Virus record (IMG/VR): IMGVR_UViG_3300034062_006549
Coordinates: 1-58,071 of that record
Source: a virus
Direction: 5' to 3' (one strand)
Length of the DNA stretch: 58,071 nucleotides
Under the pieces are notes generated by a model, which did not search any database, was not told the DNA's origin, and saw nothing but the letters and a program-made list of their open reading frames with translations. This document shows positions 20,899-41,372 of the stretch, piece after piece (the first letter of the stretch is position 1; the number at the start of each line of letters is the position of its first letter). Made by a program: the position numbers and the translations under genes.

Positions 20899-22962
20899 AT
20901 GAGTTGTTTTTGTCCATCGGGTTATACCCCAACCATAGATTCAGATGATTGTATATATACAATAACTGCCGCAACAAGTGGTGGTACATATTTTTATACT
21001 GGTGTCGCTGCGGTTGATGTAAGTGTTTATTGTAAGTTTGGTGTTTTTTTCTATGAAGATATTACAAACTTATCATTTCCAATAACCACTTCAGGCACAA
21101 CCGGAACAACAACAACTGAAAATGGTACTTCATTATTTAGCACCCAATTTATGGTTGATAATAGTGGAAGAATTTTAAATATTCAAGCCGGTGGTAATGG
21201 TGCTCCATATGGACCAACATCAATACAAAATAGTTTATGGGGAACAGGAATTGGTACTAGTACTGGTAGATTAAATAACGCAGGTATTTGGGCAACATCA
21301 GTCGTTCCTGGTGACCCAATAGATGAATGGTTAGGATTTTCATATTGTTTAGATATAGTTTCTGGTGGAACTTATTTTATTGGTGTCGCTTCAGATAATC
21401 TTTTCAAATTAACATTAAACAATCAATTATTAGTTCAAAGTAATACAACAAATTTTGATTATAGTGCTCCTTTAGGTATGCCTGGTACATATATTGGGTT
21501 TAATAGTTGGAGTGTTTTCCCAATTACTCTAAGTTCAGGTCTTAACATAATCCAAATGGAATCCTTGAATTTAACAGGTAATCCTTTATCAAATTATGCG
21601 GCCTTTGCTGCGGAAATATATTCAGGTTCAGTTTCTACATTGAGTGGTTATACAAGTTATTCTCAATTAAGTGCTGATACTATTTTTACAACATTAGATT
21701 TTATTGGCCAAGATATTCCGTTATCATCAAGTGGCGCAACAACAAATACGGGTTATACTTGTCCTGATGGGTATTCATTATATACTTGTAGTGGAACACC
21801 ATATTGTATTTTTATAGATAAGGTAGGATTAATTAGTTTTTGTATAAGTGACACTGGATTAGGTTATGATGATAACTTTACACTTTCAGGGACTTATAAT
21901 TCAGAACCATATTGGAGTGGTAGTTCAACTAGTAGAGTTATCTATTTAACTTCAGGTGGGATGTGGTGTTTATCTGATACTTTGGGTGGAACTTGTCTTT
22001 TGGAAGGTGCTTACCCTTGTACTTCAACTTGTCCTGATTTGTGTGATACATATTTTAGTGAGGGAGTTTGTCCGACACCAACACCAACACCTACAATTAA
22101 TTGTTCAGTATTAGATTTTACCGCAATATTTGATTGCGAAGTAACACCAACACCATCTATTACCCCAACATCAACCACTACTCCAACACCTACCCCAACA
22201 CCAACACCAAGTGATCCTTGTGGTGGTAGAGCGGTAGATGTGACAATAACTGGATATACACCAACTCCAACACCTACAATTTCAGTGACACCAACAATGA
22301 CACCTGAAATAACAAGACCTTGTAATGTTAATGGAAATGTTACATTTAATATTATTGACGCTTACATAGAATGTCCAAGTAGTAAACAATTCCAAGATTG
22401 TGAGACTGGTAAAATGTATTATACTACTAAAAAGTTAATAGTTCCTTCAGGTGATGTTTTAGCCCCATTTATGGTTTTCAAAGCTGATGTAAATGGTGTA
22501 TCAAAATGTATTTCGTTTGTTGGTATCAATATGTTAATAATTGGTGTTGATGATATTGTTTTAGTTGATGGTGTTTTAGGATACTCAAACTTAGGTGAAT
22601 GTTCTTTATGTACACCAGATATTCCTCCAACACCAACTCCAACAATGACACCTACAATAAGTCTAACACCTTCGGTAACACCAACTATTTCAGCACCTAT
22701 GGGTTATTATGTTTATAGAAATTGTAATACTTTAGTTTATTTAATTCAAACATCTCCAGGTCCTTCTATAGTACCAGGTCAAACATTCTCAAATCCTTCA
22801 TCAGAATCATTTGGTGATTGTTGGTCGTTTGAATTCTATTCGGCAACTTATCCAACGTTATCACCTAAGGCAAGTTATACTTACTTATCAGGAAATAATT
22901 TTACAAATTTAGGTACAACAATTTATTCAGATTGTGTCTCTTGTAATGCAAGTTCAGGATAA
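20899..22962 (+). CDS. Large Thr-Pro-linked adhesin or tail-fibre protein, 687 aa
   Basis: Residues 1-265 form a PA14/GLEYA-like beta domain. Markers are FGVFFYEDITNL, GRLNNAGIW, GGTYFIGVASDNLFKLTLNN, QLLVQ and WSVFPITLSSGLNIIQMES. Three later Cys-containing beta modules are separated by Thr-Pro linkers ([10 protein letters not shown]-type). Such PA14-like domains bind carbohydrates. No signal peptide is present, as expected for a phage virion protein. It is a paralogue of the protein at 26229. The likely role is a fibre or decorating adhesin, which is inference. Confidence 0.75.
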   Translation: MSCFCPSGYTPTIDSDDCIYTITAATSGGTYFYTGVAAVDVSVYCKFGVFFYEDITNLSFPITTSGTTGTTTTENGTSLFSTQFMVDNSGRILNIQAGGNGAPYGPTSIQNSLWGTGIGTSTGRLNNAGIWATSVVPGDPIDEWLGFSYCLDIVSGGTYFIGVASDNLFKLTLNNQLLVQSNTTNFDYSAPLGMPGTYIGFNSWSVFPITLSSGLNIIQMESLNLTGNPLSNYAAFAAEIYSGSVSTLSGYTSYSQLSADTIFTTLDFIGQDIPLSSSGATTNTGYTCPDGYSLYTCSGTPYCIFIDKVGLISFCISDTGLGYDDNFTLSGTYNSEPYWSGSSTSRVIYLTSGGMWCLSDTLGGTCLLEGAYPCTSTCPDLCDTYFSEGVCPTPTPTPTINCSVLDFTAIFDCEVTPTPSITPTSTTTPTPTPTPTPSDPCGGRAVDVTITGYTPTPTPTISVTPTMTPEITRPCNVNGNVTFNIIDAYIECPSSKQFQDCETGKMYYTTKKLIVPSGDVLAPFMVFKADVNGVSKCISFVGINMLIIGVDDIVLVDGVLGYSNLGECSLCTPDIPPTPTPTMTPTISLTPSVTPTISAPMGYYVYRNCNTLVYLIQTSPGPSIVPGQTFSNPSSESFGDCWSFEFYSATYPTLSPKASYTYLSGNNFTNLGTTIYSDCVSCNASSG
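22073..22690 (+). repeat. Thr-Pro codon repeats (ccaacacc-type) in the first adhesin gene
   Basis: Short tracts of CCAACACC(A/T) repeats at about 22073-22096, 22142-22211, 22259-22310 and 22626-22690 encode Thr-Pro linkers. The same DNA repeat occurs in the genes at 26229 and 29001. Confidence 0.8.
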
Positions 22963-23980: not shown

Positions 23981-25195
23981 ATGGCATACATTTTTAATAA
24001 TTCAGTAAAGTATTCGGATGGTCCTAACTTAGACGCTTTTGGTCGTTTAAGAACTGCCGCAGTACAAAATCTTTTGGATATCAAACATACATTTGATAAA
24101 AACCCACTTCAAATTAGTGAGGTTACGGCTGGTACTGCTACATCAATATTTGACCAACAATACGCAAGAGTGAGAATGTCAACCTCAGCTAACAATGACT
24201 TGGTTATTCGTAAGACTAAAACACATCCAATTTATCAACCAGGTAAAAGTCAATTATTTGAAGGTAGTTTTAGTAATTTTCAAATAGAACCTAATGTAAT
24301 TAAAAGAGTTGGGTGTTTTCAATCAACAACGGGTTCACCTTATAATTCGGTATTTGATGGTTACTTTTTGGAAAGTAATGGTGTTACTAGTGCAATAACA
24401 TTTAATATATTCTTAAGTGGTTCTTGTACTTTTAGTGCTGACTCAACAACTTGGAACTCAACCGAATTCGACCCAAATAATTTTGATTGGGCAGAAACAA
24501 ATCTAATGACAGTAGATTATCAATGGTTAGGTGTAGGTAGAGTGAGATTTGGTATGGTTTTATCAGGTCAAACATTCTATTTTTTAGATTATACCGCAGC
24601 AAACAATATACCAACTGTTTATATGTCCTCACCGAATCAACCAATTAGATACGAAATTAGACAAGTTGGTGTTGGTTCAGGTTATTTTGATATGATTTGT
24701 TCTCAAACTTCAACAGAAGGTGCCCTAAATGGTTTATATTCAACAGTTTCAATTCCTTACACCGCAACAACCACGATGGCTACCTCAGGTACAAAATATC
24801 CATATATTGGATATAGATTAAAAGAAAATTACATTGGTGTAACATCTCAGTTTGACACAATCAGTATCTTAAACACTTCAAACGATAATTACTTGTTGAC
24901 AATGGAATTCAATCCAACATTATCTTCAACACCAACTTGGACTGATATTCCAAATTCACCTTTTCAATATTCTTTAAGTGATGGAACTCCAACAATAACA
25001 ACACCAGGACACGTAATGACATCTCTAATTGGTGAGGCTGGTACATCTGCTTTAACAACCACCAAATTAGATGACAATCAAATAAGAGTTGGTTCAAATG
25101 TTAATGGTACTAGAGATGAAATGTGGTTATGTATAACACCATTAAGTAATAGTGCCACATTCATTGGTGCTGCTGATGTTTTATATTATTTATAA
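23981..25195 (+). CDS. Virion structural protein of the DAFGRLR type, 404 aa
   Basis: The N-terminus contains NSVKYSDGPNLDAFGRLRTA, a DAFGRLR motif that I recognise from large-phage structural proteins. The rest is beta-rich with little low-complexity content (for example YQWLGVGRVRFGMVLSGQTF) and ends with an ADVLYYL strand. It is probably a decoration or tail component, and its exact position in the particle is unknown. It is tightly coupled to the fibre gene upstream and followed by the glycosyltransferase gene after 29 bases. Confidence 0.65.
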   Translation: MAYIFNNSVKYSDGPNLDAFGRLRTAAVQNLLDIKHTFDKNPLQISEVTAGTATSIFDQQYARVRMSTSANNDLVIRKTKTHPIYQPGKSQLFEGSFSNFQIEPNVIKRVGCFQSTTGSPYNSVFDGYFLESNGVTSAITFNIFLSGSCTFSADSTTWNSTEFDPNNFDWAETNLMTVDYQWLGVGRVRFGMVLSGQTFYFLDYTAANNIPTVYMSSPNQPIRYEIRQVGVGSGYFDMICSQTSTEGALNGLYSTVSIPYTATTTMATSGTKYPYIGYRLKENYIGVTSQFDTISILNTSNDNYLLTMEFNPTLSSTPTWTDIPNSPFQYSLSDGTPTITTPGHVMTSLIGEAGTSALTTTKLDDNQIRVGSNVNGTRDEMWLCITPLSNSATFIGAADVLYYL

Positions 25196-25224: not shown

Positions 25225-26202
25225 ATGGAGGATTTAATTTTTGTAACCGCACAACCTGACGTACCTTACTTCCATTGGCAAGTTAGAGTTTATGTCCACA
25301 ACTTTATTGAGATGGGGATTAACCCAAACCAAATACACGTAATATTTGGGATTATGAATCAACAAACAGACCCAAGTTATGATTCATTAAAATTAAAAGA
25401 ATTGGGGATTAATATCCATTATTATAAAGATGAAAGAAAATTCAAACATTATATACCTAGTATAAAACCTTTTTTAATCTACAAGTGGTTGGAAGAATAT
25501 CCTTCATATGGTAAACTAATATTCTTACATGATGCGGACATTGTTTTTAGAAAACTTCCTAACTTTGAAAGTTTAATAAAAGATGATATTAATTATTTAT
25601 CTGACACCATTGGTTATATTGGTTATAACTACATAATTGATTGTTGCAATCGTTATGAGAAAAGCCATCCAAATTGTTCAAAACAAAAACTTTTGGATAA
25701 TATGTGTGATGTTATTGGAATTGATAAAGAAGTTGTTAAATCAAATCAAAATAATTCTGGTGGTGGACAATATTTGATTAAAAATTCTGATTTCAAACTT
25801 TGGGAGAAAATATACATAAATTCTACCGAATTGTACGATAAGATATGGGATTATCACACCAAATATCCAATAAAACCAGGTGAAATTCAATCTTGGACTG
25901 CCGAAATGTGGTCATTACTTTGGAATTTATGGTATTATGGTTTTGAAACAAAAATTTCAGATGAATTAGATTTTTCTTGGGCTACTGATAGTATTGATGT
26001 TTATAATAATAAAAACATTCTCCATATGGCTGGTGTTACTGAGAATCTAAAAACAAAAAAATTCTTTAAGGGGGATTTTATTAATGTGAATCCATTAAAC
26101 AAACTAAAGGAAAATATTGGTTTTTTTGATTATATCGATAAAAATAGTTCAACGACCGAATATATAAAAATAATGAAAACTATTGTTGAAAATGGTTTCT
26201 AA
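25225..26202 (+). CDS. GT-A fold glycosyltransferase-like protein, 325 aa
   Basis: Residues 1-80 have a nucleotide-binding start (DLIFVTAQPDVPYFHWQVRV). Next come KLIFLHDADIVFRKLPN, with a DAD (DxD-type) metal motif for sugar-nucleotide binding, SGGGQYLIKNSDFKLWE and the acceptor-side helix TAEMWSLLWNLWYYG. The order fits a GT-A enzyme and the GGG...EMW pattern recalls plant-type peptidyl glycosyltransferases. No membrane segment is present, so it acts in the cytoplasm. It lies between two Thr-Pro-rich adhesin genes, so those proteins are the natural candidates for its substrate. That is inference. Confidence 0.75.
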   Translation: MEDLIFVTAQPDVPYFHWQVRVYVHNFIEMGINPNQIHVIFGIMNQQTDPSYDSLKLKELGINIHYYKDERKFKHYIPSIKPFLIYKWLEEYPSYGKLIFLHDADIVFRKLPNFESLIKDDINYLSDTIGYIGYNYIIDCCNRYEKSHPNCSKQKLLDNMCDVIGIDKEVVKSNQNNSGGGQYLIKNSDFKLWEKIYINSTELYDKIWDYHTKYPIKPGEIQSWTAEMWSLLWNLWYYGFETKISDELDFSWATDSIDVYNNKNILHMAGVTENLKTKKFFKGDFINVNPLNKLKENIGFFDYIDKNSSTTEYIKIMKTIVENGF

Positions 26203-26228: not shown

Positions 26229-28244
26229 ATGAGTTGTAATTGTATTCTACCATTTATGGTAAATGCTGCCGGTAATGGTTGTGAACAAATAACTATAACC
26301 TCAGCAACTATACCACCAATTTTAAGTACTGCAGTATTTCCAACCACAACAAGTGGTAGGTGGGGTACTATGGGTATTGTAGTATATGAAGATATTACCA
26401 ATTTACCAAAACCAATAATATTATCATCAGATATAAGTAATGGTGGTGTATCAACTAGATCAAACCAATCACTAAAAAAATGTACTTTTTTCAGACATAG
26501 TGGTAACCCTTTACAAGGATTCCAAACTAACATTTTAAGTTTACAAGTTGGTGGTCCTGGTTATGGATTTGCTCAAGATTTAATAAATCCTCCAACTTTT
26601 TATGGTCCTGCTATTGAACGGGGAGTTATTGATACTACAGCTGCTGGTTGTAATACGAGTTGTTATCCATCGTATGCACGTACTTGGGGAAATCAATATG
26701 GATGGAATTCAAGTGGTGCAATATGTGGTCCGACATGTAGAGCAGGAAGATTGGGTAAAGCAGGTATATGGGGATCGGGTTTAGGTTTAAACAATTGGGT
26801 TGGTTTTGTTAGTTGTATTACTTTAGCTTCTACTCAAACAATATACATTGGTATGGCCGCTGATGATGATTTTAGATTTTATTTAAATAGTCAATTATTG
26901 GTTGAGGGTGTTTCACCATCATCTATTGCAGGTTTAACCGCCTATGGATTGACCCAAGTTATAGGTGTTTCAACTTCCTTAAATTGGAACGTATTTCCAA
27001 TTACTCTACAAGCGGGTACTTACACATTTTCACTTGAAGCAAGAAATCTTGCTTCTGATGGTATATTAGGTGCCGAAATATATACTAATGTTAATGATGT
27101 TCAGGATTTCAGAACTATGACTGTTCAGGCAGGACCGAATTCTATTTCAAATTATTTAGCTTTTTCAACATTAAATAGAATTGGCCTACCATTTCAATCA
27201 GGCCAAATAACTTGTCCTAATGGATTCTTCCTAACTAATTGTGGTGGTGAAATAAGATGTCAAAGAATTACGACAACAGCTTGTGCTGCTCCACCACCAT
27301 CACCTTCACCAACGCCAACAATAACACCAACACCTACTAAGACACCAACAAGAACACCAACTCCAACACCCACTAAAACTATAACACCAACGCCTACTCA
27401 AACACCTGGTGCTTCGCCAACGCCTACACCATCCATAACACCAACGATAACACCAACAATTACACCAACGATTACACCAACGTCATCTGCAACTCCAACT
27501 CCAACACCGACACCAGTGTATGATTATTTGCAATTTGGTTATGTTCAGGCAAATGAATGTGATGTTATTACAATTTACCCTATGGGTGTAAGTTGTATTA
27601 CAACACCTGTTACAGGAAAACCAGGTAATTCAAATGGTATTATTGAGTTATCAATAACTGGGGGTACTTTACCATATACCATAACTATGACCGATTCAAA
27701 TGGTGTATCATCATTAGTTGGTCAAGTCGTTTATAATTTACCTGCAGGTACGTATAGTTTTGTTATTGTTGATTATTTCAGTGATTTTACTGCAACAACA
27801 ACTTGCACAATTGAAGCTCCAACTCTTCCACCAACTCCAACACCTACACCATCAAATGTACCTGTAACTTGTTTCTGTATGAAATTTAATATATGGACTT
27901 GTTCTAAGACAGCTTCGGATTCTGTTGTTCTTACAAGAACATTCTGTCAGACTATTGATGTATTTGGAGAACCTGCTTGGTTATCAAATACTGGAACTGA
28001 ATTAATATATTTTGATAGTACTGATAATAGATATGAAATGTCGGGTTCAACATCAAGTATTATAAATAGTACACCATTTTTAAGTACGGTAGGTATTCCT
28101 TGTAATAGTATATTTAATACTATTGCTCAACCAAATTCACCAACATTATTTGACGAAATAACCACACAAAGTAATTGGTCTTTAATAAATAATGTTGCAG
28201 GAAATAAATCTCTGAATTGTAAAATAAACTCAGGTAGTTGTTAA
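26229..28244 (+). CDS. Large Thr-Pro-linked adhesin or tail-fibre protein, 671 aa
   Basis: A paralogue of the 687-aa protein. Shared markers include an MSC-x-C start, [48 protein letters not shown] and [20 protein letters not shown], which fit a PA14/GLEYA-like domain. It has an extra Cys-rich insertion ([25 protein letters not shown]). A long Thr-Pro linker covers about residues 355-430. A SprB-like unit ([20 protein letters not shown]) and a Cys-rich C-terminal module follow. The protein probably binds host surface glycans. Confidence 0.75.
27291..27518 (+). repeat. Long Thr-Pro codon repeat in the second adhesin gene
   Basis: About 228 bases of CCAACxCC-type repeats encode the longest Thr-Pro linker of the block. 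A shorter copy is at about 27829-27858. Confidence 0.8.
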
Positions 28245-28248
28245 TATT

Positions 28249-28974
28249 ATGCCTATATTCAATACTATAACTCTTAATCAAACAAATTGTTCTTGTGATG
28301 CAGGAATAACAATTAACACAAGTGGTGGAAATCCACCTTACTCATATTCAATTGATGGTGGTATATCCTTTAGAAATTCCCCAATATTTACAAATATGTG
28401 TTCGGGAAATTACGTTGTAATTGTAAAAGATGTGAGTGGAGAAACATCAAATAATTTTATAACAATCAATCCACCACAAGATAAGATTGCATATAATGTT
28501 TATTTATCAACTTCAGAAAAAATAACACAAGAATCAAATAATTTTGTTTCAAAACAATACATAACAACATTAAATTTCTTTCCAACATTACCTGATAATG
28601 TTTCAGTAACTTTTGATTTAATACATTCAAATATTCAAAAGTCAGGACCTAATGATTACTCATTCTCATCAACAACAACATCAGTTTTGGATATCAATAT
28701 GGTAACAACCTCAAATTCATATTCAGGTTCAACAACTGGTTTGACAAATAATTTGAATAGTGGTTGTCAGAGTGAAAATGTATATATAACAACATTTATG
28801 GAGGGTTGGAATTCATTAACGATGACGAATAGTGATTCATTTGTATTATCAACAACAACAAATCTATATAAAAACGAAACTATACTATGTTACATTGGTA
28901 CAAGTGATGAATATTTTTCAATTTCGAATTTAAGTATAAGTGGTTGTACTTGTTGTACAATTGTGACATCATAA
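28249..28974 (+). CDS. SprB-repeat containing protein, 241 aa
   Basis: The N-terminal unit (NCSCDAGITINTSGGNPPYS, then YSIDGGISF and GNYVVIVKDVSG) is a SprB-type repeat, as found in Flavobacterium gliding adhesins. The C-terminal 150 residues are a second beta domain (NVSVTFDLIHSNIQ, TTFMEGWNSLTMTNSDSF) ending in a Cys pair, GCTCCTIV. No signal peptide is visible. The gene starts 4 bases after the paralogous adhesin stop. A role in host attachment is likely from domain content. Confidence 0.65.
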   Translation: MPIFNTITLNQTNCSCDAGITINTSGGNPPYSYSIDGGISFRNSPIFTNMCSGNYVVIVKDVSGETSNNFITINPPQDKIAYNVYLSTSEKITQESNNFVSKQYITTLNFFPTLPDNVSVTFDLIHSNIQKSGPNDYSFSSTTTSVLDINMVTTSNSYSGSTTGLTNNLNSGCQSENVYITTFMEGWNSLTMTNSDSFVLSTTTNLYKNETILCYIGTSDEYFSISNLSISGCTCCTIVTS

Positions 28975-28989
28975 AAAAACAAGACTATA

Positions 28990-28997
28990 TATTTATA
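28990..28997 (+). promoter_or_regulatory. Late-type motif adjacent to a start codon
   Basis: TATTTATA ends three bases before the ATG at 29001. The arrangement suggests a leaderless or nearly leaderless message if the site is active. Confidence 0.3.
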
Positions 28998-29000
28998 GGC

Positions 29001-32000
29001 ATGGGATATATTATAAAAAATACGGCAGGACTTATAAATACCAGGATGACAGATGCTGGTAGACAAAAATTATCACAAGGAAATTTTAACATTACTTATT
29101 TCCAAGTTGGTGATAGTGAAGTAACATATACAGCAATACCAAACTATAATCCAACAAACTTTTTTGTGTTAGAACCAAGTTTTAATGCCCAAAATACCTC
29201 AGGTGCTCCACAATCCAACAAACAAAATGTAAAATATCCTTTTTATGTTGATGGGGATAAAGGTAACACTTATGGTATTGCGAATATGAACTCAATAGTT
29301 AGTCCAATTTATAATACTGCAGCTGAAAGAGGTTTTTTCCAAGGTACAAGTATAAAAGGAACTAATGATTACAATTGGAGTGCTTTAACTAATAATTTGT
29401 ATGCTATAAATTCAAATTATGTAGTTCAAATGAACACCTTAACTGGTGGTACAACTATCGATATTATATTTGATAGTTGTAATCCATCTTCTGTTAGAAA
29501 TATTGCTGTTGGTGATTTGATTACAATATATTACGATGGTAATGGTCTTTATGATTGTAATTGTTCAAATTTTCCAACACCAACTCCTACGCCAACAATA
29601 AGTGTTACACCAACAAGTTCTCCATTAGTACCTGTTAGTCCAACACCAACTCCATCAACAACGAACACAAATCCTTGTGCTTCTCCAACACCTACACCAA
29701 CACCATCAGCAACTTTTTGTCCAACACCTACACCAAGTAATCCTTGTCCTCAACCACCACCACCTGATTGTGTTGTGAGTATGAGTAGTTGTTATCCTAT
29801 TTTGACATATAAAGTTGTTAATGTTTGTTTTAATACAATAACATTAGACAGAGTAACTCCTGATTATTCTTATTTGAGCGGTAATTGTTATGGTAGATTA
29901 ATTGTATATCCACCTAATATGACATCATTGTATGATAGTATTACACCATCTAATCATTGGAGTGATAGTGTTATAAATTTTGAGTCGGTTTGTTATACTG
30001 ACCAATTCAATGTTAATATTTGGAATATGAATATTCCTTGGTCTGAAAATCCAGCAGGATTAGACCCATCTACATATAAAGATTATACAACTTTTGGTTC
30101 AAGAAATTACTTGGGTTCAAAAGAATATTTTGGTTATGCTTCAAGTTCAGGACAAACTGATACCGATTCAACATATTATTTCAATTCATTTGATGAGAAA
30201 ATTGTAGTTAGCCCTGAAGACCAAAAAGCTATTGCAATAATTCATTATACAAATCAAACGATTGATTTATTCTATGGTGAAAAATTTGCATTGGAACCAT
30301 TTGATATCTCAGTTGATGACACCACAGGTCAAGCAAGAAACTTTAAATTACATATTCCTTGGATAATGTGGCATAAGAATCCTGAATGTTGTTATGGTCA
30401 AACATTTTGGGTTGATCCCCCAGGTTTTGATGGTTTAAATTTATTTCAAGTTCATTATTTGAAATCATCCAAAAATGGAGATATGAATGACCCTGGTATA
30501 AGATATTATCATCTTTGGGATACAAATCCAAATGAAAATGCAAGTGGTTTTGGGTTAAAAGCAAGTCAAAGTCAAGTTGCAATTGGTACACCAAATAGAG
30601 TTGGTAAGGTATTCCCAGATTCTCATTTGATTGTAATTGATGATGAAGAATTAATTGCTGCGTTATCTTATAAATCAAATAGAAACTGGACATTACCCGC
30701 ACCACAAGTTTCGTTAATAACACCAAATACTTGTGGTATTGATAATACTTCAACTATTGGGGTTTTGACTAGTTCAACTGAATATATGTATGTTACATAT
30801 AGATTATCAAATAGTACAATATTTACAGATTATCTTCATTGTAATTATTATAGCCCTATTCAAGGTCCTAATATTACTTGTACTCCATTAACTTCTCAAA
30901 ATGTTGCAATAAGATTTGGGGATGAATTTAGATGTTTAGGTTATCCTGAAACACCGATAGTACCATATGATACTTGTTATTTAACAGGTTTTACTATGTA
31001 TGTTGTTCAAGCCCCTGAGGTGTACATTGGAGCTTTCTTTGTGCCAACAGGTAATTTTTTAAATGGTCAACCAATTTTCTATAGTCCAATATTTTCACTT
31101 AATATATATTATGATGGTAGTCAATGGTTATTAAATCAAACAACTCAAATTGATGATTTAGTAATTTTTAATACACCATCACCTATTGGTGACTTTGATT
31201 TAGGAGACGCCTCAACAGGTTTTACTATTTGTGAATCAGGTTCACCGATATGTGTTGAGACTTGTTTCCAAAATGAGTCTTGTACTCAAGAAATTTTACC
31301 AAAATATTTAGTGTATGGTGATACGATTTATAATAATGGATTTTTTGGTACAATAGAGTATAGTGCCTCAACATCTGAATGGGTTGTTGTTTCATCTGAT
31401 ACTATTACAATCTTAGCCACATTAGCAGGTTTAACCGAAAATGATGTACCTTCATCAAGTAGTTGGACGATAATTGAACCAACTCTTACTGGTATTACAA
31501 CGACAGAAGGTTATTGTAGTATTGGTTGTCAATGTGTTAGTTATACGGGTGATAATGCTACTAATATATTAAAATATATGGATTGTAATGGGGTTATAAG
31601 TGATGAAATTCCATTATCAATTGGTGAAGTTTATAGTGCTTGTACATTAGAAATACTCGATTCATATTTTTTCAGTAATCCAATTGGTTCAACTAGTTTT
31701 TCCGCTTGTGCTGAAACTTGTCCAACAACTACAACAACAACAACTTGTCCTCCAGCTTGTGACTTAACTTCAAAATATTACGCAGACACATTTGAAATTA
31801 TTTGTCAGAAAGTAGGTCCTAATGAAAGACCAAATTCCAGTGAATGGAGAGTTATTGATTTTACTAATCAATTAAGTGCTTCAACCATTAATGGTTTTAT
31901 TACACCCGAATCATTATCTGCAACTACGTTTGTAATAACAAATGATGATTATGAAAATGCACCTAACTATAGTTTGAATTATTTAGGTTTACCTTCTGCT

Positions 32001-32282
32001 GGTTCAACTGGAACAAGTCTGAATTTTGGTGATGAATATTATTTCTATGGTAATTTAGAAACTGATATTCAAGCTACAATTTATGAAATGAGATATAAAG
32101 TAAATTTAGGTGCAACTGAATTCTTAGCATCATCTAATCCAACTTGGTCTTCAGGTATTCAACCACACGTTAGCGAAATAGGACTTTACGATTCTGATAA
32201 AAATCTTATGATTATATCAAAATTGCAATCACCATATCCAAGAACTGGTGTACAACAATTTTTAATAAAATTCGATTTTTAA
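29001..32282 (+). CDS. Large virion structural protein with Thr-Pro linkers, 1093 aa
   Basis: The start is ATG 29001 (MGYIIKNTAGLINTRMTDAG), which gives the conserved opening. The longer frame from 28944 would read through the motif and the preceding gene. Residues 1-190 form a head domain (NFNITYFQVGDSEVTY and so on). A Thr-Pro linker (about 192-245) follows, then a large beta-rich body with two or three modules, a TTTTTTT spacer near residue 915 and a C-terminal domain of about 170 residues. The N-terminus probably anchors to the tail or baseplate. It is the largest plus-strand gene, and RuvC follows after 6 bases. Confidence 0.7.
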   Translation: MGYIIKNTAGLINTRMTDAGRQKLSQGNFNITYFQVGDSEVTYTAIPNYNPTNFFVLEPSFNAQNTSGAPQSNKQNVKYPFYVDGDKGNTYGIANMNSIVSPIYNTAAERGFFQGTSIKGTNDYNWSALTNNLYAINSNYVVQMNTLTGGTTIDIIFDSCNPSSVRNIAVGDLITIYYDGNGLYDCNCSNFPTPTPTPTISVTPTSSPLVPVSPTPTPSTTNTNPCASPTPTPTPSATFCPTPTPSNPCPQPPPPDCVVSMSSCYPILTYKVVNVCFNTITLDRVTPDYSYLSGNCYGRLIVYPPNMTSLYDSITPSNHWSDSVINFESVCYTDQFNVNIWNMNIPWSENPAGLDPSTYKDYTTFGSRNYLGSKEYFGYASSSGQTDTDSTYYFNSFDEKIVVSPEDQKAIAIIHYTNQTIDLFYGEKFALEPFDISVDDTTGQARNFKLHIPWIMWHKNPECCYGQTFWVDPPGFDGLNLFQVHYLKSSKNGDMNDPGIRYYHLWDTNPNENASGFGLKASQSQVAIGTPNRVGKVFPDSHLIVIDDEELIAALSYKSNRNWTLPAPQVSLITPNTCGIDNTSTIGVLTSSTEYMYVTYRLSNSTIFTDYLHCNYYSPIQGPNITCTPLTSQNVAIRFGDEFRCLGYPETPIVPYDTCYLTGFTMYVVQAPEVYIGAFFVPTGNFLNGQPIFYSPIFSLNIYYDGSQWLLNQTTQIDDLVIFNTPSPIGDFDLGDASTGFTICESGSPICVETCFQNESCTQEILPKYLVYGDTIYNNGFFGTIEYSASTSEWVVVSSDTITILATLAGLTENDVPSSSSWTIIEPTLTGITTTEGYCSIGCQCVSYTGDNATNILKYMDCNGVISDEIPLSIGEVYSACTLEILDSYFFSNPIGSTSFSACAETCPTTTTTTTCPPACDLTSKYYADTFEIICQKVGPNERPNSSEWRVIDFTNQLSASTINGFITPESLSATTFVITNDDYENAPNYSLNYLGLPSAGSTGTSLNFGDEYYFYGNLETDIQATIYEMRYKVNLGATEFLASSNPTWSSGIQPHVSEIGLYDSDKNLMIISKLQSPYPRTGVQQFLIKFDF
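29573..29741 (+). repeat. Thr-Pro codon repeat in the 1093-aa gene
   Basis: CCAACACC-type tracts between 29573 and 29741 encode the linker after the N-terminal domain. Confidence 0.8.
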
Positions 32283-32923: not shown

Positions 32924-35900
32924 TTATGGTACGGCAATATCTCCAACAAATGTCCAAGTATAACTTGCAATTATATTAGACCTTGCTACGTCTGCTGTAC
33001 TACCTATCTGATATTGTAATCCATTAACACCAAGAATAACATTTGGTTGTAATGATGGTAATGAATTCCAACCAATAAGAAGATTTTCGTAATTAGTTTG
33101 ACTCATATTACATCCATCAAACATAAAACCACCACCTTGTAACGCAGATACATTCCAAGTACTTAAGTCTTGGTCAAAAGAAGTTGCATTATTGAACATT
33201 CCTGGAGCTGAGATAAGATTAATAACATTCCAATTGTTCAATGTTTGATTGAATGACGTTGCTCCATTAAACATATCATTTGAACTTGTCACATTTGATA
33301 CATTCCAACTATTTAATGGTTGATTAAAGGATGTTGCCCCTTGGAACATAGCACCAATTTGTGTATTATTTCCCATATCCCAATTACTAATATCTTGGTT
33401 GAATGTCGTTGCAAATATAAACATTCTTGTTGTATCTGTGACTGAAGAAGTGTTCCAATTATTTAATGGTTGATTATACAATGTACATCCTCTGAACATA
33501 CTATTGATAGTAGTTACGTTTTCCATATTCCAACTTTCAATATTATCATCAAATGAAGTAGCATCTCTAAAAGTTGCAAACATATTTGTTATAGTTGATG
33601 TGTCCCAATATTCAACATTATTGATTGTTGTTAATAATGAACACCCTCTGAAAGTATTTAATAAAGTGGTACAATTTGTTAAATCCAAAAAGTCAGTTAC
33701 ACCTGATAAATTCAAATTATAACATCCATAAAAATGACCACCAGTATTACCTAATTCCAAAATACCCCATTGTATAACATCGGTCATTTTTTCTTCATCC
33801 CCACTATTATTGAATGTCCAACCTGATAATTGACCATTAATTTGAATTACATATTTGTCATTTACACTATAGGTATGAGTTGTCAATGGATCATTCCAAG
33901 TATTAATTATATCAATATTTCCATCTCCCCAATCAACTTCAAAATCGTAAACTCCTCCAGATTCTAATGGAAGGGTAAAGTTACCAATTCCTGACACCCC
34001 AGCGAAATTTACATCAACTTCAAAAATAAATGGTACAACAACAGGACTTCCACATTCTTCACAACTAATATCATAATTTATTATCAGATTAACCGTTAGA
34101 TTTGCATCAATAATAAAAATTTCAGGATTACAAATTGTACTTACACTTATTGTGTTTGTGGCAGGATTTACAATAACACTTTCAATCTCAGTATATGATT
34201 CTAATACAGTTTTAAGTGTTTCATAAAAATATTCATCTGATGGAAAATCAGTAATACCTGAACTGATATAAATTCCTAATCCTTGTACATTTCCATTGAG
34301 ATTCGCTTCTAAATAAAATGATGCCAAATTTATAACACAATTGGTATCACCTGATGTTAAATCGTGAAAACCTTCAATTAACATTTGTTCAGGACCTCTT
34401 CGTATCAATGTTCCATCACTTGAAAGTTGATTCTCACAAAGTGTGAATAATTCAAATGAAGATATTTTATTATATCCCAATAATGTTGTAGTTCTACTTC
34501 TAACACATCCATTATCATCAGTTATTGATAAAGAATATGTTCCTGCTGTTAAACCACTTATTGTAGAACCAGTTTGACCACCAACGTTAGAACTCCAATT
34601 TAAAATAAATGGTGGCTCTCCTGCAGTTATAAATGCAGTAATTTCACCATCATTACCATTTTCTACATTTGTGGATGATAAATAAAAATCAATTGTATTT
34701 GATGGGTCTATTACAAATCCAACAGATTGTTGACATAAATTAGTATCTGTAACACTTGCCGTATAATTTCCTGATGGTAAATTTGTAAAAGTAAATGAAG
34801 TACCAGTAACCCCAAAGATAATACTTGAGTCTATTTCAAATTTATACGGTGGTGTTCCACCTGATGTAATCGTTAAGGTAACTGAACCGTTTGTATTATC
34901 ACAAGTAGTACCAGTTGTTGATGTTGATAATGTAAATAAACTTGTATTTGATATTGTAACTGATTGTGTGAAAACACAAGGTCCTCCATCAGATATTGTT
35001 AAAGTGTATGTTCCTGATGGTAGATTATTAAAACTATAACTTTTAATGGTACCAGGTGTTGTATCAGTAATTGTCTGAGTATTACCTGAAGAGTCTACTA
35101 ATGTATAGATAAAAGGACCACTACCACCTAAAAAGTTGAAATTAATTGTACCACTACTATTATTACAAGTTGAGTTAGTAGTCGATACTAATATTGTTGA
35201 AAATGAATTAGGTGTATTTAAAAATGTTGATCCGTTAACTGTACATAAACCAGCATCAGTAACCAATACCGAAAAAGCACCTGCTGCTAAACCTGTAAAA
35301 GTATGAGAAGTACTAAATGTAATTTCAACAGCACCATTTGAACCTGAATAATAATAAGGGGCTGTTCCACCAGTAACAATAATAGTTATCTCACCATCAG
35401 AGGCGAAACAAGTTGGGTTGACTGCGGTAAAGGTACCTATTCCAAAATCTTGAGCTGAAATAATATTTGTTCCCAAACTTTGTACACAACCCGAACCATC
35501 TGTAACATTTACACTATAAAATCCATCAGTCAAACCAGTAATAAATGATGTTGTTTCACCATTTGGTGACCAAGAATATGTATATGGTGGTGTACCTGTT
35601 AATCCTGTAATATATATAGCACCTGAATTAAAAGCACAAGCTGCGTTGTTAATAGTGTAAAAACCAAAATTTAATGTTGATGAACTTTTAATTATACAAC
35701 TTTCAGTTTTACCAGTACACCCTCCACCATCATCTGCTATAACATAATAAGTTCCTGCGGATAAATTAGTAAATGTAATACTATAATCTAATACAGAACC
35801 TGAAGTAACTAAACCACTATTAAGTTCGTATAAATAAAATTCATTTACATCATAATAGTTTGTTGTTGTTGCGGTAATACTTCCGTTTACTTGATTACAA

Positions 35901-36205
35901 GTAGTATTTTCAATGTCCGTTATAGATACACAAGTTCCCGAAGAAATATAAATACTAATAGGTTGAATTGTGTTAAATGGGACACAGCTATCGATTATTT
36001 CAAATTGATACGTACCTGCACTCAAACTATCAAGTGAGTAAGTTGTTGATGAACCTAAAGCGACCGCAGTTCCACCTGAAGGACTAACCCAATAAATTAA
36101 GTATGAGGGTGCTGAACCTGTGAATTGGAGTTCAAACGCCCCTGAACTGGTATTGGAACAATCACCAGTAATACTTATTGATTCTATATTTAAATAACAA
36201 GACAT
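32924..36205 (-). CDS. SprB-repeat and DUF285 tail-fibre protein, 1093 aa
   Basis: Residues 1-560 hold about seven tandem SprB-type units (for example VNPTCFASDGEITIIVTGGT, TGTTCDNTNGSVTLTITSGG), each 75-80 residues. A linking domain (about 580-730) follows, then a PKD-like stretch (YDFEVDWGDGNIDI) and a BspA/DUF285-like repeat region (about 830-1040), with units such as ATSFNQPLNSWNVSNVT and GMFNNATSFDQDLSTWNVS. SprB is the gliding adhesin of Flavobacterium and DUF285 is common on bacterial surface proteins. It likely forms a distal receptor-binding fibre. Its start overlaps the stop of the 1024-aa gene by one base. Confidence 0.8.
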   Translation of the reverse strand: MSCYLNIESISITGDCSNTSSGAFELQFTGSAPSYLIYWVSPSGGTAVALGSSTTYSLDSLSAGTYQFEIIDSCVPFNTIQPISIYISSGTCVSITDIENTTCNQVNGSITATTTNYYDVNEFYLYELNSGLVTSGSVLDYSITFTNLSAGTYYVIADDGGGCTGKTESCIIKSSSTLNFGFYTINNAACAFNSGAIYITGLTGTPPYTYSWSPNGETTSFITGLTDGFYSVNVTDGSGCVQSLGTNIISAQDFGIGTFTAVNPTCFASDGEITIIVTGGTAPYYYSGSNGAVEITFSTSHTFTGLAAGAFSVLVTDAGLCTVNGSTFLNTPNSFSTILVSTTNSTCNNSSGTINFNFLGGSGPFIYTLVDSSGNTQTITDTTPGTIKSYSFNNLPSGTYTLTISDGGPCVFTQSVTISNTSLFTLSTSTTGTTCDNTNGSVTLTITSGGTPPYKFEIDSSIIFGVTGTSFTFTNLPSGNYTASVTDTNLCQQSVGFVIDPSNTIDFYLSSTNVENGNDGEITAFITAGEPPFILNWSSNVGGQTGSTISGLTAGTYSLSITDDNGCVRSRTTTLLGYNKISSFELFTLCENQLSSDGTLIRRGPEQMLIEGFHDLTSGDTNCVINLASFYLEANLNGNVQGLGIYISSGITDFPSDEYFYETLKTVLESYTEIESVIVNPATNTISVSTICNPEIFIIDANLTVNLIINYDISCEECGSPVVVPFIFEVDVNFAGVSGIGNFTLPLESGGVYDFEVDWGDGNIDIINTWNDPLTTHTYSVNDKYVIQINGQLSGWTFNNSGDEEKMTDVIQWGILELGNTGGHFYGCYNLNLSGVTDFLDLTNCTTLLNTFRGCSLLTTINNVEYWDTSTITNMFATFRDATSFDDNIESWNMENVTTINSMFRGCTLYNQPLNNWNTSSVTDTTRMFIFATTFNQDISNWDMGNNTQIGAMFQGATSFNQPLNSWNVSNVTSSNDMFNGATSFNQTLNNWNVINLISAPGMFNNATSFDQDLSTWNVSALQGGGFMFDGCNMSQTNYENLLIGWNSLPSLQPNVILGVNGLQYQIGSTADVARSNIIASYTWTFVGDIAVP

Positions 36206-40214: not shown

Positions 40215-41372
40215 TTATGTATTTGTAACTTCAAAAAAACCATATCCGTATTTAGTTAAATCACCCACGTTATCAACTTCACCCAATCTAATGATTCTTT
40301 CCAATGCCGAATTTTTCCCCCTTTCAACAAAGACCTCAGATTGGACTTCAGGTTCATCAACAACGTTAATTAAATATTCTTCTTTAATTAAAGGTTCGCA
40401 AACTACATCAATTGGTGTAACTCCCGAAACAATGAAAAGTGTTGTACCATCTTCATAATCATAGTAATCAATTCCATTTATTGTATATCCAGTTGCTAAA
40501 CCATCAGGTGTTGGTCCTTTATATATTCCAACAACTCCCGAACTACCAGTAACCACATATCCCAATTTAAACTTATTAACTCCGAACTGAGCCAAATCAT
40601 TCAAAGATGATTTAGTATAACCTGTAATTATTATATCACTTGTCAAATATGGATTAATTCCACTTTGGTAAATTTCACACGTTGAGTCTCCACTAAAAAT
40701 AAAGTCGTATGAAATTGGTGTGTCAGCCCAACTACCACCAAACGATTGAAAGAATACTTCACCATTCGGATTATCTATTGTAACACCAGTGAATGGTACA
40801 TATACTTTCTTTTGAATTATATTATACCCCCAAGGACTCATACCTGACATCGTAATTGTGTATTCCCCACTTGAAACATATGTATGAGTATATGGTGTTG
40901 ATGTGTATGGTGATACACCAGTTACGTTACCATCACCCCAACTTATTTGGTAATTTGAAAAACTAAGATATTTTTTAAATTCATTTTCTGAGGTGTTATA
41001 TAAAAATATTGTTTTAGCGGGTAGGACTGGATTTCCACTAAAAACAAAATTATTTAAAACATCCTTTTGTGAAATTAAACCATCAAATACTGAATAATAT
41101 CCAACATCAATTGCTGATTGTGTCAACATTATTGGTACACTCAAATCAGTCAATAAAGAACTACCATTTGTTCCACCTGACAAAATTTGTGTCATTGAGG
41201 AATAAGTGTAGGTTAAACCTGTAATCTTAGTTGTTGTGGTTGTTGTTGTTACATCACAACAAGGATCCGCACTGAATGGTTGTGAAAAAAAACCTCTAGT
41301 GTAATCAACTAAAAACTTTTTATTGTTAATTACCTCAGGTGATATTCTTATATGAAAAGTTCTATCTTGCAT
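40215..41372 (-). CDS. PKD-domain tail protein, 385 aa
   Basis: The N-terminus has a Cys pair followed by a TTTTTTT spacer (SADPCCDVTTTTTTTKITG). Residues about 140-195 hold a PKD-type domain: SNYQISWGDGNVTGVSPYTS followed by YTHTYVSSGEYTITMSG. More beta strands and a charged C-terminus (ERIIRLGEVDNVGDLTKYG, YGFFEVTNT) follow. PKD domains are common in phage and surface adhesins. It overlaps the preceding gene by one base and belongs to the same operon. Confidence 0.65.
   Translation of the reverse strand: MQDRTFHIRISPEVINNKKFLVDYTRGFFSQPFSADPCCDVTTTTTTTKITGLTYTYSSMTQILSGGTNGSSLLTDLSVPIMLTQSAIDVGYYSVFDGLISQKDVLNNFVFSGNPVLPAKTIFLYNTSENEFKKYLSFSNYQISWGDGNVTGVSPYTSTPYTHTYVSSGEYTITMSGMSPWGYNIIQKKVYVPFTGVTIDNPNGEVFFQSFGGSWADTPISYDFIFSGDSTCEIYQSGINPYLTSDIIITGYTKSSLNDLAQFGVNKFKLGYVVTGSSGVVGIYKGPTPDGLATGYTINGIDYYDYEDGTTLFIVSGVTPIDVVCEPLIKEEYLINVVDEPEVQSEVFVERGKNSALERIIRLGEVDNVGDLTKYGYGFFEVTNT

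Follow-up and report, generated by a model that had tools for sequence, protein, structure and literature searches.

What a phage-encoded glycosyltransferase (GT) modifies when its gene lies among genes rich in Thr-Pro (TP) dipeptides is the question raised by the open reading frame (ORF) at 25225-26202 of a viral DNA of 58,071 nucleotides (IMG/VR record IMGVR_UViG_3300034062_006549; the whole stretch is referred to here as the window). The first-pass annotation of this DNA had read the ORF as a GT-A enzyme with a DxD motif and no membrane anchor, situated between two paralogous genes with TP-rich linkers, and had proposed that the phage glycosylates its own fibres on those linkers.

The enzyme encoded by ORF 25225-26202

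The ORF is intact, begins with ATG, and encodes 325 amino acids. It is a full-length match to phrog_4417 (E = 2.7e-71; profile positions 3 to 291 of 293), a family without an assigned function. In an alignment of 40 homologues, D103 and D105 of the DxD motif (H102-D103-A104-D105) were invariant and the C-terminal H267 was nearly so (at least 90%); by analogy with known GT-A enzymes, H267 is a putative metal-ligand histidine. An AlphaFold2 (AF2) model generated from the 40 sequences (pLDDT 96.6; pTM 0.93) has a GT-A fold of the Rossmann-like, nucleotide-binding type, and together with the invariant aspartates it bears out the original assignment. The N-terminus, MEDLIFVTAQ, leads directly into the first GT-A strand (residues 5 to 11 in the model); for this reason the protein reads as soluble and unanchored, as had been claimed.

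Using Foldseek, 213 matches to the model were identified in the PDB at E ≤ 1e-3, and the best 50 of the 213 were all of the GT-A type. The structural neighbours include UGGT (GT24), glycogenin and XXYLT1 (GT8), ABO transferases (GT6), LARGE1, and the PBCV-1 capsid glycosyltransferase (PDB 2p6w), with TM-scores of approximately 0.4 to 0.5. The structural comparison that the first-pass annotation had recommended thus places GT-A enzymes acting on proteins or protein-linked sugars among the best matches. The GT shares the GT-A fold and DxD motif with the GT8/GT24 enzymes (glycogenin, XXYLT1, and the UGGT catalytic domain; best E approximately 1e-7 to 1e-5), several of which act on such substrates, but the TM-scores are just 0.4 to 0.5, identity is approximately 10%, and there is no match to PF01501. 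The PBCV-1 enzyme is likewise a viral GT-A enzyme, with a part in glycosylating a major capsid protein according to its PDB title (structural E = 1.7e-5); however, its source is a chlorella virus whose capsid is unrelated, and the resemblance is limited to a TM-score of 0.35 to 0.50 and 12% identity.

Sequence profiles did not place the protein in a described family. No Pfam match (PF01501 included) was obtained for any of 20 family members, NCBIfam gave nothing convincing, and a PDB sequence search with the GT profile returned no match; TALE-repeat matches in a single-sequence PDB search were spurious. Membership of CAZy family GT8 by sequence was rejected, as there was no Pfam match and hhalign to bacterial GT8 proteins gave a probability of 1.3%, and GT2 (PF00535, Glycos_transf_2) had 0 matches in the window. 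PADLOC found nothing.

Genomic neighbourhoods of the family

The features of the window are listed in Table 1. The two flanking TP-repeat genes are paralogous, as had been stated (28% identity over 321 amino acids, E = 6e-22), and carry nearly equal numbers of TP dipeptides, but only the downstream one adjoins the GT gene; three ORFs (23011, 23332, and 23981) separate it from the upstream one. A third TP gene, 28944-32282, lies two genes downstream of the GT gene and probably starts at the in-frame ATG near 29001 (MGYIIKN...).

Table 1. Coordinates of the GT gene, its neighbours, and candidate acceptor sites in the window
Feature	Coordinates	Strand	Evidence or remarks
TP-repeat gene, weak PA14-like N-terminal region	20899..22962	+	24 TP dipeptides; no Thr run of at least 5
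Virion structural protein, phrog_1645 (E = 8e-48), adjoining the GT gene on the 5' side	23981..25195	+	
GT-A-fold glycosyltransferase, phrog_4417 family	25225..26202	+	ORF, profile, 40-sequence alignment, AF2, Foldseek
TP-repeat paralogue directly 3' of the GT gene	26229..28244	+	25 TP dipeptides; no Thr run of at least 4 in the window
TP-linker virion or adhesin gene	29001..32282 (listed from TTG 28944)	+	19 TP dipeptides; Thr runs of orthologues track GT
Proposed acceptor site: seven-Thr run, residues 928-934 of ORF 28944-32282, context ETCPTTTTTTTCPPACD	31725..31745	+	
Possible second acceptor site: seven-Thr run, residues 42-48 of ORF 40215-41372	41229..41249	-	

On the opposite strand, 32924-36205 encodes an adhesin-like protein of 1,093 amino acids that matches SprB repeats five times and also contains DUF285 repeats, which hints at a Bacteroidota host. 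Contigs related to the window reach 200 to 320 kb, so the window probably represents just part of a far larger phage genome.

Relatives of the GT at 25 to 36% identity were identified in 74 cultured phage records, with hosts in Lactobacillus, Enterococcus, Staphylococcus, Lactococcus, and Arcanobacterium and one Chryseobacterium phage. The GT is also present in at least 504 viral contigs and at 36 loci of bacterial genome assemblies, nearly all from Firmicutes; several relatives are prophages. Where annotated, the neighbouring genes are mostly virion structural genes. In phages phiFL2B, SA2, VPE25, 1706, TPWB06, iLp84, and bIL285 head and tail genes surround the GT gene, and the usual site of the GT gene in annotated phages is right after the major tail protein (MTP) or major capsid protein (MCP) gene, or after a small gene behind either. 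Relatives in the Herelleviridae carry it in a different late region. The enzyme is therefore phage encoded and near virion genes, as would be expected of a virion glycosylation system, and its location is alike in strictly lytic and temperate phages. In phiFL2B, gp49 (L023:9995-10903) is the GT but is labelled "major tail protein" in GenBank; the true tail protein is encoded by the preceding gene.

Many phage GTs alter host surface glycans, and activity of this kind, in superinfection exclusion or seroconversion and with the late-operon site incidental, would also suit the occurrence of several relatives in prophages. We regard it as very unlikely here: no flippase or membrane partner adjoins the GT gene in the annotated neighbourhoods, the protein is predicted to be soluble, the site among head and tail genes is common to strictly lytic and temperate phages, and Thr tails gained on MTP and MCP along with the GT (see below) would be left unexplained. 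Glucosylation of phage DNA bases, for which the T4 glucosyltransferases offer a precedent, is extremely improbable given the location in a late structural operon and the coupling to Thr runs; no association with modified-base genes was noted, and no DNA glucosyltransferase family was matched.

Threonine runs and the presence of the GT

Orthologues of gene 28944-32282 were gathered without regard to the GT and then clustered, giving 37 GT-positive (GT+) and 20 GT-negative (GT-) clusters. It was found that 30 of the 37 GT+ clusters, against 1 of the 20 GT- clusters, carried a run of at least five Thr in this protein (P = 1.7e-8). In the same orthologues, at least 10 TP dipeptides were present in 31/37 GT+ and 17/20 GT- clusters (P = 1.0), with a median of 16 in both groups. 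The sole GT- cluster with a Thr run is a short contig (L407) whose sister (L396) has the GT. When the whole available records, which may be fragments, were checked, the GT was found in 0 of the 34 GT- records. The two nearest kin of the window by this gene, L362 (GT+) and L363 (GT-), both have an orthologue without runs. GT state changes eight times on the gene tree, and there are four supported independent pairs; random pairings averaged 1.8 concordant and 0.2 opposite. Counterparts of 26229-28244 also bear Thr runs in many GT+ relatives, and for orthologues of ORF 40215-41372 the link between Thr runs and the GT was not significant (5/15 versus 1/14, P = 0.17).

These comparisons do not favour the TP-repeat linkers of the flanking genes as the substrate of the GT. 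The genes are adjacent in the window and TP stretches are plausible O-glycosylation substrates, but TP frequency is equal with and without the enzyme, and the co-occurrence in related phages that had been offered as a check was not seen, as 25 of 26 kin records have TPTPTPT codons and only 7 records have the GT. In addition, cultured GT+ phages mostly show Thr-run tails and not TP repeats. With no covariation between linker and enzyme, the TP linkers were rejected as the target, and this reading is now unlikely. What stands of the original proposal is self-glycosylation, with the acceptor corrected from TP linkers to the Thr-rich virion segments that are coupled to the GT.

Across the family, Thr runs, mostly C-terminal, were found near the GT on the MTP and MCP of phiFL2B, the MTP and protease-capsid gene of 1706, the MTPs of VPE25 and bIL285, and gp8 and the MCP of iLp84, as well as in Bacchae and MA9V-3. 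When GT loci were clustered at 80% identity, a run of at least five Thr lay within 8 kb in 96 of 98 clusters; GT homologues lacking a Thr-rich gene nearby, named at the outset as evidence that would count against the proposal, are thus essentially limited to the other two. A run of at least six Thr was present in 95/98 clusters and in 10/134 GT- comparison loci (P = 4e-49, for loci that are not fully independent). Of 42 loci from Firmicutes or cultured phages, 38 have the gene with the Thr run directly before the GT gene, and in 40 the run falls within the final 20% of the protein. The tagged genes vary by lineage and include MTP, MCP, a small upstream gene, and adhesins.

A search in the reverse direction, from viral contigs with ten-Thr codon runs (L146 to L265), identified a phrog_4417 GT in approximately 14 of 120; the GT was enriched in this set but far from exclusive to it, and many of the matches were false reading frames. 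As most of these contigs do not have this GT, oligo-Thr alone is no proof of its presence. GT2 genes were found in 9 of 30 other Thr-run contig records and perhaps represent other enzyme-tag pairs.

A second comparison used 90 Firmicutes loci with a homologous MTP, 79 of them distinct. All 17 distinct GT+ loci had a Thr-run tail on the MTP, compared with 1 of the 62 GT- loci (P = 2e-16). The exception is the 5.5-kb contig L480. It begins 448 nt ahead of the tail gene, which places the usual GT site off the contig, and its tail is identical to that of the GT+ locus L486. On the MTP tree the GT and the Thr tail each undergo three changes, in step, and there are two supported independent pairs. 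As supported independent pairs are few in both comparisons, the tree-corrected tests are not significant by themselves. Within the genus Coetzeevirus, R3.3 has the GT and a Thr tail on the MCP as well as on the MTP, whereas Bassarid and phiJL-1, whose MCP and MTP are 67 to 76% identical to those of R3.3, have neither GT nor tails; the GT was not found in the whole records of either phage. In two structural protein families that are unrelated to each other, GT presence is therefore coupled to Thr runs, and it varies together with a segment of virion proteins that is a candidate acceptor.

Linkage could generate part of this association, since the two genes are often adjacent and might move as one cassette by modular exchange while being functionally unlinked, with the GT acting, for example, on another virion site; the small number of supported pairs is compatible with such exchange. 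This explanation has a very low probability in our estimation, because the two tailed proteins of R3.3 and phiFL2B, MCP and MTP, are encoded kilobases apart and the MCPs of the two phages are unrelated (23% identity), and because the tagged genes differ between lineages. An enzyme and a tag that occur together on differing virion proteins across lineages are the pattern predicted by dedicated virion O-glycosylation.

In the Enterococcus phages phiFL2A and phiFL1C (L522 and L523), which are otherwise identical to phiFL2B, one extra T in a homopolymer breaks the GT frame, and the Thr tails are kept. Natural loss, phase variation, and sequencing error are all possible sources of the insertion. 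Unless it is a sequencing error, the tails can persist once the enzyme is lost, or the phage may not need the enzyme.

Proposed virion O-glycosylation and related systems

Taking the GT-A fold, the location in structural regions, and the Thr-run coupling together, virion self-glycosylation is the best reading, and we put at roughly three in four the probability that the phage encodes a system that O-glycosylates its virion proteins at oligo-Thr tags dedicated to this purpose. A soluble, metal-dependent GT-A enzyme would act in the host cytoplasm with a nucleotide-sugar as donor (by fold analogy probably a UDP-hexose), and would transfer the sugar to the hydroxyls of consecutive Thr in oligo-Thr runs that the phage carries on its virion proteins. 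Among Firmicutes phages these runs would be the C-terminal tails of MTP and MCP; in the clade of the window they would be short runs within adhesin or linker proteins, including the T7 run of ORF 28944-32282. The runs would serve as dedicated acceptor tags, gained and lost together with the enzyme. Modification would precede assembly, and its benefit may be shielding, stability, or receptor tuning. We infer from sequence and model that the enzyme is catalytically active, and likewise its donor sugar, the O-Thr linkage, its action ahead of assembly, and the benefit to the phage.

A broader version, which we hold somewhat less firmly but still consider rather probable, is a two-part "glycotag" system widespread in tailed phages. 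In this system phrog_4417 enzymes would be paired with portable oligo-Thr tags, fitted repeatedly and independently on MTP, MCP, small decoration-like proteins, and adhesins, partly by +1 frameshifting, to give mucin-like glycosylated tails on the virion surface of Bacteroidota-type and Firmicutes phages.

The premise that known phage GTs usually modify DNA or host O-antigen was a fair statement that left out published work on virions. Virion glycosylation by phage GTs is already known from mycobacteriophages: in Che8 and others, GTs encoded by the phage place glycans on its virion (capsid) proteins (Freeman et al. 2023, Cell Host Microbe, as cited in PMC10955285 and PMC11256854), and in F1 mycobacteriophages the virion GT genes are near the 3' end of the genome, according to PMC11256854. 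The likeness is that the GT is phage encoded and the proposed product is a glycan on the phage's own virion, here on the basis of genomics and a predicted fold. Unlike those systems, the present one couples a single distinct GT family with oligo-Thr tags, and it occurs in phages of Firmicutes and of the Bacteroidota type. The recurring enzyme-plus-tag pair across these phages appears undescribed in the literature searched; a search for reports of a GT together with phage tails of poly-Thr or Thr-rich sequence found nothing, with subscription papers largely outside its scope.

If correct, this reading would assign both a function and an acceptor to phage proteins that form a large orphan family, and virion glycosylation would reach beyond mycobacteriophages. 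Sequence alone would then predict which virions are glycosylated and at which residues, including those of long-cultured phages such as bIL285, 1706, phiFL1A, and VPE25, and the tags would supply a simple short-peptide acceptor for protein O-glycosylation.

Two variants of the tag were also observed. In the Staphylococcus phage SA2 (L024:11640-11924) and the Arcanobacterium phage TPWB06 (L028:9680-9920), CCC-TAA closes the major tail gene, and a long Thr-rich +1 frame follows directly 3' of it. A +1 shift would append approximately 60 to 75 Thr-rich residues, and the arrangement suggests a programmed frameshift that would tag just part of the tail subunits. Listeria phage PSA uses +1 frameshifting on its structural genes; SA2 and TPWB06 resemble it in having CCC-TAA and a +1-frame extension but differ in that they are GT+ phages and that what is added is a Thr-run tail. 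The most divergent relatives, in LP65 (orf50 and orf51; L524:5052-5934) and SAC12B (L526:3410-3967), are not accompanied by plain Thr-run tails. The tails beside them carry TTTETQTQTQ and PTTVKPTTVAP repeats in place of such runs, which suggests that the tag sequence may evolve along with the enzyme.
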